A DNA stretch of 32,451 nucleotides from Oscillospiraceae bacterium (GTDB taxonomy: Bacteria > Bacillota > Clostridia > Oscillospirales > Ruminococcaceae). Below are positions 25,929 to 32,379 of the stretch, piece by piece. Every line of letters begins with the position of its first letter. Position 1 is the stretch's first letter. Made by a program: the position numbers and the translations under genes. Under the pieces are notes generated by a model. It had not been told where the DNA came from. It did not search any database and worked only from the letters and a program-made list of their open reading frames with translations. The stretch covers positions 1 through 32,451 of the forward strand of contig JAITFZ010000028.1 in NCBI GenBank assembly GCA_031280965.1. Reading direction: 5' to 3'.

Positions 25929-26906
25929 TTAATACTTTTCGTTAATCAGACGAGATAATTTATCCATATCGAAAGAAGATTCATCATCTTTTTCGCTTTT
26001 GCTTTTCTTTTTGTGGAGTTTTTGCGCTTTTTCAAGCTGTTCCCTGCTCCTGATTCCCTCGGCGTTCCATTTCTCTATAATCTTATTCATATACGGAAAA
26101 GCCATCTTCCCTGTTTTATCAAGTGTAATCTGATAAGCTTCCGACAACATGTCCTCGCCGTAGCCTAAATTACTCCACTTCATAATCAGTTCTTTCTGTG
26201 CTTTTGAGAACGCGCTGTTCATCTCAAAAAGTTTCTTCAGCTTGCTTTCAAGGCTGTTCATCTCGCGCAAGATTTTGATTTCATCCTCAACCGCACCTAT
26301 TGACATAATTCCGCGTTCGAGCCAATCTGCGGCGATTGCTTTCATATAGGACGGTGTTGCCTTCTCTGCCGTGAAACAATATTCAACGAGCATTAATGCA
26401 CATTCGGCAGGAATTCCGGTTTCTTCGGTAATAAGCATCAGCGAATTTTGTTCGTTGTGTTTAAGTGTTCTGCCGAATATCCGCTCACATTCCTTGAAAA
26501 GGAAGTTCATGCCCTTATCGTCGCGCACAGCTTGCGCGATTTCTTTCGGGTAGAAGCGGGGTGAACGTTCAAGGTCGATTTTCTTTATATTTGCAACAGC
26601 GGGTTCAAAGGGACTTATAACCGCATAGCCCGCTATTGCCCCTGTAGTTCCGGGGGTAATTTCACTTTCATTAAAGGCGAGCAGTCCCGTTTGCTCCCAA
26701 AAAAGCAGTGCGTCTTTAACATCATCGGCGCCTACTCCGGTTTTGGCAGAGATTTCATCAGCCGCAAATTCATACCCTGCGTTTCTGAGAACAAACAGCA
26801 GAATTTTAAGGTTATTCCCGCCCGCTAATTTGATGTAGTTATCAACGACCGCCGCTGGAACCGCGAAAACGCTGTTCCACGCGCCGAGATTAAGTTTGTA
26901 GTTCAC
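25929..26906 (-). CDS. DnaD-domain replication initiation protein
   Basis: This 325-residue protein belongs to the DnaB/DnaD primosome family of Firmicutes. The N-terminal winged-helix half includes LKILLFVLRNAGYEFAADE. The middle part carries the DnaD-like domain (ILREMNSLESKLKK through KWSNLGYGEDMLSEAYQITL, with the closing FPYMNKIIEKW). The tail is basic and Lys/Ser/Glu-rich. It precedes the helicase-loader gene by 12 nt, so the pair forms a helicase-loading operon. The start is a GTG at 26906 without a clear ribosome site; no better in-frame start is apparent. Confidence 0.87.
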   Translation of the reverse strand: MNYKLNLGAWNSVFAVPAAVVDNYIKLAGGNNLKILLFVLRNAGYEFAADEISAKTGVGADDVKDALLFWEQTGLLAFNESEITPGTTGAIAGYAVISPFEPAVANIKKIDLERSPRFYPKEIAQAVRDDKGMNFLFKECERIFGRTLKHNEQNSLMLITEETGIPAECALMLVEYCFTAEKATPSYMKAIAADWLERGIMSIGAVEDEIKILREMNSLESKLKKLFEMNSAFSKAQKELIMKWSNLGYGEDMLSEAYQITLDKTGKMAFPYMNKIIEKWNAEGIRSREQLEKAQKLHKKKSKSEKDDESSFDMDKLSRLINEKY

Positions 26907-27004: not shown

Positions 27005-27741
27005 ATAAAACCGAAACCCGTGCGGTTAAACCGCACGGGTCGCTATATTAAATTTTCTTCCTTTAATGCACTATGGAAGTTGCACTTGAAACTTTACATT
27101 TTTTATTTAAACGCATTAGCGATTAATCCGGCGCACCATGCCGCCCTTGTCTTGGGGTTTCTTTACACCCCCGACTGAAGCTTACCGTGCTTTTAATTTG
27201 CCGGCATATAAATTTTCAAGCCTATTTCGCGGTTCCGCTCCGAATTTCTTTACACTCTCGGCGGTTTTCCGTTTACACGGGTTTCCCGCTAAATATAGCT
27301 ATAACGCTGATGCGATTGCGGTTTTGCGTTTATATTAAGCGTTTTCCCGGTAAAAGTACCGAACCTAAATCCTTTAAATCAGAAAAGACCGTGTGAGCCT
27401 TTCGATTTACAGCGATTTCAAGTGTTGCTTAATCGTGCGCGAGCCGCAATTGCTCTCAGCACTTTGAGTTCTGCATCCATTGGACTCGCCACCCTTTCCC
27501 GGTCAAATTTACATAATTTCCATACGTTCAGAATTTATGTATTTTGGCTCTTTCTCCGGCTTACCTTGCTTTAACTTTTGCAGTCATGTTCAACCGGTTC
27601 GTTACTCCAAATATATTTGAAGCCAGCCCTGCCTCGGTTCTTTCTTACTCGCTTTCCTTCTACGGTTTTCCGGTAGTTTCACCATCGTTACTCTTACCGC
27701 ATTATCCCGTTATCGGGTTTTGCTTTGTGAATTTCTTCCGT
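27005..27741 (-). ncRNA. Candidate large structured non-coding RNA (about 735 nt)
   Basis: No credible protein gene lies between 26906 and 27946. The minus strand has a promoter (27748-27777) and ends in a terminator hairpin (27016-27040). Between them many local stems can be read: 27706-27717, 27660-27676 (one bulge), 27608-27619, 27510-27516 with 27535-27541, 27435-27462, 27348-27361, 27287-27297 with 27331-27341 (10 of 11 bp) enclosing 27303-27307 with 27326-27330, 27146-27180 (three helix blocks), 27130-27145, and 27064-27069 with 27113-27118. A possible closing pair joins the 5' CACGGAAG to the 3' CTTCC-ATA-GTG. Loops on the minus strand are purine-rich (GAAA, AAAA), which fits RNA in that direction. 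RNase P, tmRNA and 6S hallmarks are absent. The size recalls ROOL or GOLLD RNAs, but I cannot match it. Confidence 0.62.
27010..27040 (-). terminator. Terminator of the candidate large RNA
   Basis: ACCCGTGCGG and CCGCACGGGT form a perfect 10-bp stem with a 5-nt loop (27016-27040). On the minus strand TTCGGTTTTATATAA follows. The T-run is interrupted, but the stem is very strong. Confidence 0.75.
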
Positions 27742-27747
27742 GACTAT

Positions 27748-27777
27748 ATATTACCATATAATGTATACGAATGTCAA
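27748..27777 (-). promoter_or_regulatory. Promoter of the candidate large RNA
   Basis: On the minus strand the perfect -35 box TTGACA (27772-27777) is followed after 18 bp by TAATAT (27748-27753). No open reading frame or ribosome site follows. Confidence 0.7.
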
Positions 27778-27889: not shown

Positions 27890-27918
27890 TTGTTTTTCCA
27901 ATAATGATGTGGTATAAT
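27890..27918 (+). promoter_or_regulatory. Promoter upstream of the yigZ remnant and ygjP
   Basis: TTGTTT (27890-27895), 17 bp, TATAAT (27913-27918), with a TGG before the -10 giving an extended -10 element. Confidence 0.6.
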
Positions 27919-27945
27919 AGGTGACAGAGCCGAAACAAACATCGT

Positions 27946-28107
27946 ACCGCGCTTCTTGGCACGTTGCAACAGCGATATAGGAAATATATGAAGCGGGGTT
28001 TTATCGTAGTTGTAGTGGTTAGGTATTTCGGCGGTACGCTTTTGGGGAAAGGCGGCTTGATTCGGGCTTACGGTAAGACGGCGGGGCTGGCTCTCGAAAA
28101 TTTATAA
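27946..28107 (+). pseudogene. C-terminal remnant of a YigZ/IMPACT family protein
   Basis: A frame of 53 codons ending at TAA 28107 contains VVVVVRYFGGTLLGKGGLIRAYG, the core signature of the YigZ/IMPACT (UPF0029) family, followed by a short helix and stop. The normal N-terminal part, about 80 residues, is missing. A piece resembling the preceding D-G-E-P motif (EPKQT, about 27926-27940) is visible in another frame, so the gene suffered a frameshift or deletion. The promoter upstream survives and now probably serves the YgjP-like gene 13 nt downstream. Confidence 0.75.
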
Positions 28108-29303: not shown

Positions 29304-30419
29304 ATGAATAAAAGAATCTGGCTCTCCGCACCTGCGATGTGCGGAAAAGAGATTGAATTTATAAATCAGGCATTCAAAGAGAATTGGGTTGCCCCGCTCG
29401 GTCCAGATGTCGATGCTTTTGAAGACGAAATGTGCAACTATATCAGCGCGAAGCATGCAGTTGCGATGACGACCGGTACGGCGGCAATTCACATGGCTTT
29501 GAAGTATATCGGTGTTGAAAACGGTGATGTTGTTTTCTGCTCTTCTTTGACATTTGCGGCAAGCTGTAATCCTATAATGTACCAAAATGCAGTACCTGTG
29601 TTCATAGACAGCGAGCCGGAGACGTGGAACATGTCGTCGGTAGCATTGCAAAAAGCATTCGATAAATACCCAAATCCCAAGGCAGTAATTGTAGTTAATT
29701 TATATGGGCAATCCGCCGATATGGATAAAATACTTGAAATATGCGATAATTATAATGTACCTATAATTGAAGATGCGGCTGAAAGTCTTGGTGCGATATA
29801 TAAAGGTAAAGCGAGCGGTACGTTTGGAAAATTTGGAGTGTTATCGTTTAACGGTAACAAAATTATCACAACTTCGGGTGGTGGGATGTTAATTTGCCCT
29901 GATGAAATTTCAAAAAAGAGAATACTAAAATGGATAACTCAAAGCCGCGATGAAGCAAGGCATTACGAACATAGTGAACTCGGTTTTAACTACAGAATGT
30001 CAAACATATGCGCGGGAATCGGGCGTGGGCAGCTAACGGCGATTGGCGAGCGAATCAGCAGGAAAAAAGAGATTTATGATACTTACAAAAAGGCTTTTTC
30101 TAATATTAACTCAATTGAGATGATGCCGGTTTGTGACTACGGAGAGCCGAATTACTGGCTGTCTTGCATGACAATAAAAGTAGGTTGCAAAATAAATCCG
30201 ACAGATATAATTGACGCGCTGGAAAAAGAAAATATTGAAAGCCGTCCGATTTGGAAGCCGATGCACTTACAACCTTTTTATAAGAAATACGATTATTTTA
30301 CACATGACAGCGATGTTTCGGCAGATATTTTCGAGCGCGGCTTATGTTTTCCCAGCGATGTGAATATGACAAACGATGATGTACAAAGGATAATTGAGAT
30401 TATACGAGGGCGCTTCTAA
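29304..30419 (+). CDS. DegT/DnrJ/EryC1 sugar aminotransferase (PglE-like)
   Basis: A 371-residue PLP enzyme of the DegT/DnrJ/EryC1 family that transaminates nucleotide 4-keto-sugars. The PLP lysine is K186 in SFNGNKIITTSGGG, and D157 in IIEDAAES should bind the pyridine ring. The start LSAPAMCGKEIEFI resembles PglE of the bacillosamine pathway, which makes the 4-amino sugar from UDP-4-keto-6-deoxy-GlcNAc. The dehydratase that supplies the substrate (PglF kind) is not in the window. The stop overlaps the start of the transferase gene as TAATG. GGGAAAG precedes the ATG. Confidence 0.9.
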   Translation: MNKRIWLSAPAMCGKEIEFINQAFKENWVAPLGPDVDAFEDEMCNYISAKHAVAMTTGTAAIHMALKYIGVENGDVVFCSSLTFAASCNPIMYQNAVPVFIDSEPETWNMSSVALQKAFDKYPNPKAVIVVNLYGQSADMDKILEICDNYNVPIIEDAAESLGAIYKGKASGTFGKFGVLSFNGNKIITTSGGGMLICPDEISKKRILKWITQSRDEARHYEHSELGFNYRMSNICAGIGRGQLTAIGERISRKKEIYDTYKKAFSNINSIEMMPVCDYGEPNYWLSCMTIKVGCKINPTDIIDALEKENIESRPIWKPMHLQPFYKKYDYFTHDSDVSADIFERGLCFPSDVNMTNDDVQRIIEIIRGRF

Positions 30420-31054
30420 TGTACAGAAAATGTTTTAAGCGTTTATTTGACATAATATTTTCTGCGCTTGCGTTGATTGCGCTTTCGCCGGTTATGTTGA
30501 TTGTAGCCATACTTGTTAGAATTAAGCTCGGTAGTCCTGTTATATTTAAACAGCAGCGTCCGGGCATTGACGGGAAAATATTCACGATGTATAAATTCAG
30601 AACGATGACGGACGAACGTAACGAAAATGGCGAACTGTTGCCGGATGATATAAGACTTACAAAGTTTGGAAAGTTTTTAAGAAGCACGAGCCTTGATGAA
30701 CTACCGGAGTTATGGAATATCTTGAAAGGCGATATGAGCGTTGTGGGACCGCGACCTTTGTTGGTGGATTATCTTGAGCATTATAATGAGTTTCAAAGTC
30801 GCAGGCATGAGGTAAGACCGGGACTGACGGGACTGGCGCAGGTTAATGGCAGAAATGCAACGACATGGGATGAGAGATTTAGTTTTGATGTGCAGTATAT
30901 AGAAAATGTAAGTTTAGTGCAGGATATTAGGATTGGTTTTTTGACAATTGGTATGGTATTTAAACGTGAGGGAATAAGCCCTGAAAATAGCGTGACGATG
31001 GAGAGTTTTGTTAAGAGCAAAGAAAGTAAACATGAGAAAGTATATAGGTCATAA
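30419..31054 (+). CDS. Initiating sugar-phosphate transferase (PglC-like)
   Basis: A 211-residue monotopic phosphoglycosyl transferase that moves a sugar phosphate from UDP-sugar to undecaprenyl phosphate. It has the N-terminal re-entrant hydrophobic helix (LALIALSPVMLIVAILV) and the catalytic Asp-Glu dyad in SLDELPELWNILKGDMS. It also shows VGPRPLL and RPGLTGLAQVNGRN. The C-terminus is Lys/Ser-rich. It couples to the aminotransferase by TAATG and lies 3 nt before the formyltransferase frame. With its neighbours it fits the start of a bacillosamine-type glycan. Confidence 0.93.
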   Translation: MYRKCFKRLFDIIFSALALIALSPVMLIVAILVRIKLGSPVIFKQQRPGIDGKIFTMYKFRTMTDERNENGELLPDDIRLTKFGKFLRSTSLDELPELWNILKGDMSVVGPRPLLVDYLEHYNEFQSRRHEVRPGLTGLAQVNGRNATTWDERFSFDVQYIENVSLVQDIRIGFLTIGMVFKREGISPENSVTMESFVKSKESKHEKVYRS

Positions 31055-31057
31055 ATT

Positions 31058-31748
31058 ATGAATAAAAACAATAAACAGGTTATTTTCTTTGGAAAAAAGA
31101 ATGATGAATGGTGTAAAAAAGCATTAACTTTATATTCTAAAAAATTTTGAGAATGTTGAATATTATCTTGGTAATTGGGGCGACTCGTTCCCAGACGGCG
31201 CAGGCTACGCGCACGCGGGGGCAGATTATATCATTTCCTACCTTTCGCGTTGGATTATCCCCGAATATTTACTGAAAAAGGTGAAGACGGCTGCTATAAA
31301 TTTTCATCCCGCTTCGCCCGCATATCCGGGAATAGGTTGTAATAATTTCGCGTTATATGAGGGTGCAAAAGAGTATGGCGTTACTTGTCACCATATGCTC
31401 GAAAAAGTTGACACAGGAAATATTATAGCCGTTAAGTATTTTCCGATATTTCCTACAGATGATGTTGAATCATTACTATTAAGAACTTATGATTTTCAAC
31501 TTGTTTTGTTTTATGAAATTGTAGGAAAAATATTAAACGGCGAAAATCTTCCGTTATCATCAGAAAATTGGGACCGAAAACCGTTTTCACGAAAAGAATT
31601 TAATGAGCTAATAAAAATAACATCTGAAATGGATAAAAATGAAATCGAGAGACGTATTCGCGCAACTAATTATCAGCAATTTAAACCTACTATACAGATA
31701 GATGATTATATATTTGAATTTAAAGGACTGAGCGAGGATGCAAAATAA
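31058..31748 (+). pseudogene. Sugar N-formyltransferase, frameshifted
   Basis: An ATG at 31058 opens a frame (VIFFGKKNDEWCKKALTLY) that stops at 31148-31150 just after an A6T4 run (31139-31148). The protein continues one frame over (ENVEYYLGNWGDSFPDGAGY) to TAA at 31748. The continuation carries the formyltransferase active site NFHPASPAYPG...CNNFALYEG, with the N and H of the N-H-D triad and the Asp in VDTGNI. Total length is 691 nt, one base more than a multiple of three, so removing a single A or T would restore about 229 residues. It is related to Met-tRNA formyltransferase and to VioF-type enzymes acting on 4-amino-sugars. The frameshift may be a real inactivation, a phase-variable state or a sequencing error. 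Confidence 0.75.
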
Positions 31749-32379
31749 CGTGATAATTATCGGCGCAAGCGGTCACGGCAAGGTTATAGCAGATATAGTT
31801 GTCAAGTCGGGGGATTATTTGTTAGGCTTTCTTGATGATAAATTGCTAAAAGATGATATGGTTTTAGGTTATCCAATATTAGGTAAAACAGAAGATGTTT
31901 ATAAATTTGATGATACTGTAAAGTTTATTATAGGCATAGGAAATAATTACACAAGAAAGAAAATAGTTGAAAAATATAGTGTTAATTGGCATACCGCTAT
32001 TCATCCGACTGCTGTTGTGGCTATTGATGTAAATATTGGTGAAGGCACTGTTGTCATGGCAAATACCATTATTAATACATCAACAAGAATCGGAAAGCAT
32101 TGTATACTAAACAGCGGTGCGGTTGTTGAGCATGATAATATGATTGAGGATTATGTTCATGTTTCACCGAATGCTTGCACAGGTGGGACTGTTGTTGTGG
32201 GTGAGCTTACGCATATCGGGATTGGTTCGACTGTGAAGAATAATGTTACAATTGCATCGGATTGCGTAGTCGGCGCGGGGGCAGTTGTTGTGAAGGATAT
32301 TATTGAAAAAGGGGTTTACGTTGGGGTGCCGGCGAAGAAAAAGCAGAAAACAAACGACTTTCGCAGGAGCGTATACTGA
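31738..32379 (+). CDS. NeuD/PglD-type sugar O/N-acetyltransferase, altered 3' end
   Basis: An N-terminal Rossmann-like part (VIIIGASGHGKVIADIV) is followed by a left-handed beta-helix of hexapeptide repeats and the EHDN motif, whose His is the general base in PglD. Acetyl-CoA is the expected donor and a UDP-4-amino sugar the acceptor. The start overlaps the formyltransferase end by 11 bp with AAAGGA 10 nt upstream. The usual ending after GVPAKK is replaced by a short run that is out-of-frame transposase sequence, so the last 10 or so residues are probably foreign. The catalytic part is whole and activity may survive. Confidence 0.85.
   Translation: MQNNVIIIGASGHGKVIADIVVKSGDYLLGFLDDKLLKDDMVLGYPILGKTEDVYKFDDTVKFIIGIGNNYTRKKIVEKYSVNWHTAIHPTAVVAIDVNIGEGTVVMANTIINTSTRIGKHCILNSGAVVEHDNMIEDYVHVSPNACTGGTVVVGELTHIGIGSTVKNNVTIASDCVVGAGAVVVKDIIEKGVYVGVPAKKKQKTNDFRRSVY

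Follow-up and report, generated by a model that had tools for sequence, protein, structure and literature searches.

The window, by which we mean the whole 32,451-nucleotide stretch of DNA analyzed, carries on its minus strand a stand-alone unit for a structured RNA, with its own promoter and terminator (Table 1). A preliminary description made from the letters alone had proposed such an RNA, and the two signals that it named, a TTGACA/TAATAT promoter and a terminator stem, were both located. The promoter-like sequence agrees with the consensus at 10 of 12 letters and has a TG ahead of the -10 element; relatives have versions resembling TTGAC-N-TATGGTATTATATAGTCAAGGAA. Our scan returned 4 promoter-like sites compared to 2.8 (sd 1.9) in shuffled sequences, and 5 terminator-like sites compared to 1.8 (sd 1.6). 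The promoter is credible because it recurs in relatives, upstream of 40 of 53 named loci by regular expression, and not because of the scan. After the promoter, the 5' end reads CACGGAAG. The region had been described as free of protein genes, and there were indeed no minus-strand ORFs of at least 60 aa within 27005-27742.

Other features were noted in the same genome. A second, partial copy of the promoter and 5' part lies at a contig end in a different neighborhood (G000 contig C5:2-179, L002), covering 176 of 791 query bases at 92% identity. Between the RNA and a YgjP-like gene, positions 27890-28107 (+) hold an apparently broken gene, which we take to be part of a YigZ/IMPACT-type protein (motif RYFGGTLLGKGGLIRAYG). 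A sugar-modification cluster occupies 29304-32379 (+), with DegT-type aminotransferase, bacterial sugar transferase, formyltransferase-like and PglD-like genes.

Table 1. Features of the RNA gene and its neighbor in the window. A2 is the alignment of five close sequences described in the text.
Feature	Positions	Strand	Remarks
Promoter TTGACA-18-TAATAT	27748..27777	-	Promoter scan; recurs in relatives
Predicted transcript, about 728 nt	27015..27742	-	Conserved CA[CA]GGAA 5' end to terminator; both ends predicted
5' hairpin GCGGUAAGAG..CUACCG	27671..27700	-	A2 helix 2; two-sided change in one pair, GC to AU
Start element AAAGGGUGGCGAGUCCA	27481..27497	-	Shine-Dalgarno plus GCGAGUCC immediately before AUG
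Hairpin across mini-ORF start, 5' arm GCGAGUC	27483..27489	-	
Core mini-ORF, 20 codons plus stop, MDAELKVLRAIAARARLSNT	27418..27480	-	Own start element
Hairpin across mini-ORF start, 3' arm GGCUCGC	27439..27445	-	Inside mini-ORF, 35 nt after AUG; p 0.015 vs shuffles
Conserved small hairpin CGGUACUUUUACCG	27348..27361	-	A2 helix 15
3' domain, GCUUGAAAAUUUAUAUGCCGGC paired with GCCGG and AUGUAAAGUUUCAAGU	27084..27221	-	A2 helices 16, 17 and 19
Hairpin GGGGGUGUAAAGAAACCCC	27154..27172	-	Triple-block stem of the preliminary description; absent or altered in some relatives
Terminator hairpin	27015..27041	-	11-12 bp stem, T-rich tail; two-sided changes in 2 of 11 pairs (A2)
DnaB_2 (DnaD-type) replication protein gene	25929..26906	-	Pfam; neighbor outside the RNA, beyond the terminator, same direction

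The RNA matches no described RNA family. When 4227 Rfam families were compared to the window, none matched at gathering score; at E<=10 the region gave 7 matches (best E 0.49), every one below its family's gathering score. The RNA was likewise unmatched at gathering score in 40 homologous loci, where the only matches were the neighboring 6S RNA and one T-box. The hallmarks of tmRNA and 6S RNA had been reported missing, and this was borne out: ARAGORN found no tRNA or tmRNA gene in the window, the Rfam tmRNA model was unmatched, RF00013 did not match the RNA, and 6S RNA was absent from the window at gathering score.

A resemblance to ROOL and GOLLD had also been suggested. These RNAs and OLE, which are typified by homo-oligomeric complexes, are like the studied RNA in being large, stand-alone, structured bacterial RNAs. 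ROOL and GOLLD are described as forming RNA cages, ribosomes as binding GOLLD in pull-downs, and ROOL as present on phages or prophages, in many cases close to tRNA clusters (PMC12286853). A likeness beyond size was not supported. No ROOL, GOLLD or OLE model appeared among the relaxed matches for the window (E<=10) or for five full-length homologues (E<=3), and the studied RNA differs from all three in lacking an Rfam match, in bearing a start element and mini-ORFs, and in being chromosomal, with no occurrence in phage DNA as far as searched. The window has no tRNA gene; blastn against 50,697 phage records gave no match; a pattern scan of viral contigs gave 3 matches, all inside a 63-aa ORF and none of them the studied RNA; and a protein search of viral contigs with the neighboring DnaD-type gene gave nothing. 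Phage origin was rejected on these grounds. The literature retrieved described neither this RNA nor any mini-ORF array, which does not prove that no such description exists.

Homologues, which the preliminary description had proposed to collect, were found in related genomes. Within the genus, blastn matched 20 of 71 genomes; in five of these the match covered all or almost all of the RNA, with approximately 70-78% identity over the aligned pieces. Alignment of the relatives yielded the core AAAGG-N2/3-GCGAGUCC-A-AUGG. Searched as a pattern with one mismatch, this start element occurred in 42 of the 71 genus genomes (31 of the 41 good ones), once per genome, compared to no matches for the reversed pattern. 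Across the order it occurred in 37 of 394 genomes compared to 4 reversed-pattern matches in three genomes, and the carriers extend to at least one further family, whose members L110-L112 and L114 show the same promoter. Our first family-wide search, with two mismatches, matched 21 of 297 genomes, a yield about equalled by reversed-pattern matches; that result was set aside, and only promoter-bearing loci were retained from it (12 of 21, the window included). A class-wide draw matched 13 of 393 genomes, 8 of them in the order. Outside the order, 5 of approximately 371 genomes matched compared to 4 reversed-pattern matches, which we took as chance level, and spread beyond the order was rejected. 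One locus outside the order (L165, G889) has a short ORF with AAGGAGGUGAGUCCAAUGG ahead of a gene read as MgtE-like.

An exact pattern scan of named genomes gave the 53 loci mentioned above, most of them titled Oscillospiraceae, Ruminococcus, Ruminiclostridium, Acutalibacter or uncultured Clostridia. Acutalibacter sp. 1XD8-36 and Candidatus Soleaferrea massiliensis are among the named carriers. Six (L061, L064, L073, L089, L091, L101) were judged unrelated because they have no promoter, and most also come from other organisms or have longer ORFs. Five other promoter-less loci (L085, L088, L093, L094, L097) were kept nonetheless, and L055 and L070 were excluded for want of a promoter, although the genes they hold had also been seen as copies (L046, L012). 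The RNA at L077, from a record titled Bacteroides sp. isolate NALB_7961_8, is the same as that of G037, a member of the window's genus, and the public name looks wrong. Judged by sequence comparison, the family is almost certainly real. We take it to be a new family of RNA genes belonging to a single bacterial order, probably Oscillospirales to judge by the names of its members.

The best-conserved part of the RNA is, as read from the sequence, a translation start. Inside the RNA, the preliminary description had overlooked an ORF of 20 codons that comes with a ribosome-binding site of its own (core mini-ORF, Table 1). Among 45 distinct relatives with a readable stop, all 45 kept this ORF at 15-27 codons, compared to 8 in the +1 frame, 10 in the +2 frame, and a mean of 11.1 (maximum 22) in dinucleotide shuffles; a 46th, L076, ends in frame and was excluded from the length and codon-position tables because the contig stops before the frame does. 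We chose the range with the lengths already in view; however, the +1 and +2 frames give anything from 2 to 57 codons, and no choice of range would make the frames alike. In an enlarged table, the ORF was 15-30 codons in 75 of 75 homologues, with 74 ATG starts and one GTG (L135, same element). The relatives were found through the start element, and conservation of the AUG itself is therefore biased.

The peptide, in contrast, drifts. Substitutions numbered 61, 74 and 87 at codon positions 1, 2 and 3 (31 pairs), and conservation of the core peptide was rejected on these counts. A protein frame conserved across homologues, which the preliminary description had named as evidence against its structured RNA, is thus present in start and length and lacking in peptide. 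Because the start and length of a short ORF are kept, the RNA is not purely noncoding. A short ORF with a ribosome-binding site and in-frame conservation, as found here, is the pattern of leader peptides and uORFs.

The GCGAGUC of the start element doubles as the arm of a hairpin whose partner (e.g., GGCUCGC) lies 31-49 nt past the AUG. The pairing was significant in only 26 of the 45 relatives, and the 5' arm belongs to the search pattern, which biases any covariation of this stem. The GGCUCG arm falls in different frames in different groups. Since the hairpin reaches across the start site and over a large part of the ORF, it must be opened by any ribosome that translates the ORF.

Attenuators are typically built from a short leader ORF and hairpins, and the RNA could be such an attenuator, or a leader, acting in cis on the gene that follows, which in the window is the DnaD-type gene. 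A similar element, AAGGAGGGGAGUCC(A/G)AUGGCUCAU, opens a 7-12 codon ORF shortly upstream of protein genes at L117, L118 and L120 (genus g145, family f20), where it looks like a related leader element acting in cis; several matches occur in some genomes (six in G617, five in G628, three in G638). However, an attenuator would have a constant regulated gene downstream in the same transcript, whereas here a terminator closes the unit and the downstream ORFs vary (DnaD-type, Sir2-like, sigma-like and others by reading the ORFs, with the Pfam check covering the window's DnaB_2 gene only). Given the terminator and the changing neighbors, we regard control of the next gene in cis as highly improbable. 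Upstream, 6S RNA lies on the opposite strand at gathering score in 11 of 20 loci, in 1 of 20 in another set, and below gathering score beside all five full-length homologues. A loose motif placed a DUF1292 gene upstream in 16 of 58 homologues, and Pfam confirmed it in 4 of 4 examples tested.

Complementarity of the start element to the 3' tail of 16S rRNA extends past the normal Shine-Dalgarno. The 16S rRNA 3' end is the usual one in 2 of the 71 genus genomes, the only ones in which our pattern found it. UCC-N-AUG stands ahead of 44 of 102 mini-ORFs compared to 3 of 373 ordinary ORFs of at least 100 aa in the same loci. For the core elements, the predicted duplex with the tail was -14.9 kcal/mol compared to -11.2 kcal/mol when the middle, the stretch between Shine-Dalgarno and AUG, was shuffled, and it was stronger in 67 of 69 elements (6 of the 75 were dropped for having no A[AG]GG upstream). 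In 56 other copies the values were -14.5 and -9.8 kcal/mol. Relative to a perfect complement of the tail, the element has one extra G, and the core version also has a C-A mismatch; the tail pairing is indistinguishable from a weak local GGA/UCC hairpin, which explains the UCC equally.

The motif GG..GAG[UA]CC gave 81 overlapping matches in sense, single sites being counted up to three times, and 0 in antisense; a start codon follows 29 of the 81. Because it recurs without an AUG, tail binding may matter without initiation, or there may be another binder. The GGAGUGAGUCC repeats could accordingly form a platform that binds a protein or another RNA in trans, the AUG being an optional extra, and the strand bias and the AUG-less copies are what such a platform would produce. 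It leaves the short in-frame stops after the AUG-bearing copies unexplained, and we consider it very unlikely.

At least one further mini-ORF beyond the core was present in 35 of 46 distinct relatives. In the 33.3 kb of these 46 relatives, 87 AUGs outside the core are preceded at good spacing by a Shine-Dalgarno of at least 5 nt, compared to 21.7 (sd 4.4, maximum 38) in shuffled sequences and 2 in antisense. The resulting ORFs are at most 15 codons long in 82 of 87 cases, compared to 59 in the +1 frame and 60 in the +2 frame. At GG..YCC-N-AUG sites, 58 of 83 ORFs have at most 4 codons, several being simply AUG-stop, and none exceeds 30; the corresponding counts were 24 of 82 and 12 in the +1 frame, and 17 of 82 and 9 in the +2 frame. 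The stops are TAA in 32, TGA in 30 and TAG in 21, and they swap after the same codons (AUG-GCA-UAA/UAG/UGA; AUG-GAC-AGU-UAA/UAG/UGA). Up to the next long ORF, with a Shine-Dalgarno of at least 4 nt and mini-ORFs counted by stop, the 13 loci examined hold 2-14 each, with ten or more in 8; when at least 5 nt are required, L037 alone has as many as ten (11). Since the relatives are not independent, the counts should not be read as probabilities. In the window RNA and the five full-length relatives nearest to it, no AUG beyond the core has a Shine-Dalgarno of at least 5 nt, the window having one mini-ORF; the array is therefore not needed for the family.

Some of the arrays may also make peptides. 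In their 3' part, 12 relatives (L054, L056, L063, L069, L082, L083, L090, L092, L095, L098, L099 and L037) carry an HDLN mini-ORF of 11-24 aa that looks conserved at the protein level. Three of its four codons vary; CAC/CAT, CTG/TTG and AAT/AAC are synonymous, and AGG (HDRN, in L090) is not. The whole RNA could then be a polycistronic messenger for tiny peptides (e.g., of 11-14 aa ending in (Y/F)HDLN(I/L)), its fold being secondary, which would also suit the long arrays with alternating basic peptides of 10-14 aa. However, a messenger of this kind does not fit sites that mostly encode at most 4 residues, a core peptide with no clear third-position excess whose frame over the GGCUCG arm differs between groups, or a window copy that has none of the HDLN or array peptides. 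We find this explanation unlikely.

The fold of the RNA was assessed by stability and by covariation. The minus strand of 27005-27745 folds at -220.9 kcal/mol (z -5.2). The plus strand of the region folds as well (z -6.1), and z therefore cannot pick the strand. With the terminator removed, the window RNA has z -2.8, and 24 relatives have a mean z of -1.9 (range +0.3 to -5.8). Stability as proof of a structured RNA was rejected, as the opposite strand folds equally and the relatives are modest. For covariation, which the preliminary description had proposed as a check, we used alignment A2 (the window, L071, L005, L006 and L075). Its consensus fold has 136 pairs, of which 25 show two-sided compensatory changes, compared to 11.4 (sd 2.2) in shuffles, with 0 of 500 reaching 25, and 3-7 in slid structures. 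The count in this close group thus exceeds both controls; these are five related sequences from which the structure itself was derived, and relatedness alone can beat shuffles.

Individual helices fared differently. The triple-block stem reported earlier is the hairpin at 27172-27154, and a proposed 5'-3' closing helix is faintly borne out by helix 1, with 80% of cells paired and two-sided change at 1 of 5 pairs. The 3' domain, which encloses the hairpin AUUAAUCGC..GCGUUUAAAU, has little covariation because it is nearly invariant in the five sequences. An AUG-UAA near 27098-27103 was rejected as a start-stop ORF, as it lies in a helix strand and has no Shine-Dalgarno.

The compensatory changes, the size and the stand-alone unit are all what would be expected of a purely structural noncoding RNA of the ROOL, GOLLD or OLE sort with an incidental mini-ORF, and the window's own group has only one mini-ORF. 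However, the frame-specific ORF length and the interchange of all three stops would have no structural reason, and the stability is ordinary in many relatives. A purely structural role is, in our estimation, distinctly unlikely.

Taken together, the sequence comparisons show the gene, its spread, the fold in the close group and the frame-specific ORF lengths. Translation of the mini-ORFs is likely, and from these patterns we infer expression, actual translation and a purpose. The best explanation is a ribosome-loading RNA, because start sites, frames and stops are kept but peptides are not. We assign a probability of roughly 0.45 to this reading, in which the family consists of stand-alone folded transcripts whose function would be the loading rather than the peptide. 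An RNA of approximately 730 nt, folded and standing alone, would be meant to be entered by ribosomes. Its AAAGG-N2/3-GCGAGUCC-A-AUG would pair with the 16S rRNA tail beyond the normal Shine-Dalgarno, and the GCGAGUC of this element would pair again within the mini-ORF of 15-30 codons, 31-49 nt from its start. An initiating ribosome would have to read through the hairpin and would stop soon after. Many relatives have further start sites of this kind strung along the RNA, and an ORF of 1-15 codons begins at each. The RNA might thereby hold or count initiating ribosomes, as a decoy or as a translation sensor with an occupancy-dependent fold.

More specific versions are put forward tentatively. 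The RNA may represent an order-wide, chromosomal, highly promoted class in which an array of extended Shine-Dalgarno sites captures and releases initiating ribosomes through mini-ORFs of 1-30 codons, a proposal that we think somewhat more apt to fail than to hold. Under capture and release, the job could be that of a decoy, a parking lot or a translation sensor, with similar reserve. With comparable caution, the window's lineage may keep a single hairpin-guarded site in a large folded RNA.

Parts of this arrangement are familiar. Dual-function sRNAs are defined by demonstrated base-pairing targets together with a conserved peptide. Those of the RNAIII type also combine a long structured regulatory RNA with a short ORF; unlike the studied family, RNAIII keeps one peptide and is not known to have an array. 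Known uORF motifs hide their ribosome-binding sites, and odc1, like the studied RNA, has a short ORF with the ribosome-binding site within a conserved hairpin; odc1 keeps its peptide and acts in cis, whereas the studied RNA has a drifting peptide and is closed by a terminator (PMC8632094). The axe-txe toxin-antitoxin operon holds a two-codon minigene and likewise uses two-codon ORFs as regulatory elements; it is a single minigene in a protein operon, in contrast to an array on its own RNA (PMC8708949). Extended Shine-Dalgarno starts of Staphylococcus aureus share start-codon-proximal extended pairing with the 16S tail and small ORFs, but are reported at ordinary mRNAs rather than on a dedicated RNA (PMC13009471).

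If the ribosome-loading reading is true, one of the major orders of gut bacteria maintains an RNA dedicated to being entered by ribosomes for almost no product. Translation would then be sensed or buffered in a new way, beside hibernation factors and 6S RNA, the latter adjoining the RNA gene in many genomes. The family would also be a warning that intergenic RNAs called noncoding can be arrays of mini-ORFs far below the cut-off of gene finders. Even should its purpose prove to be another, it offers natural ORFs of one to four codons in a compact set that can be tested.
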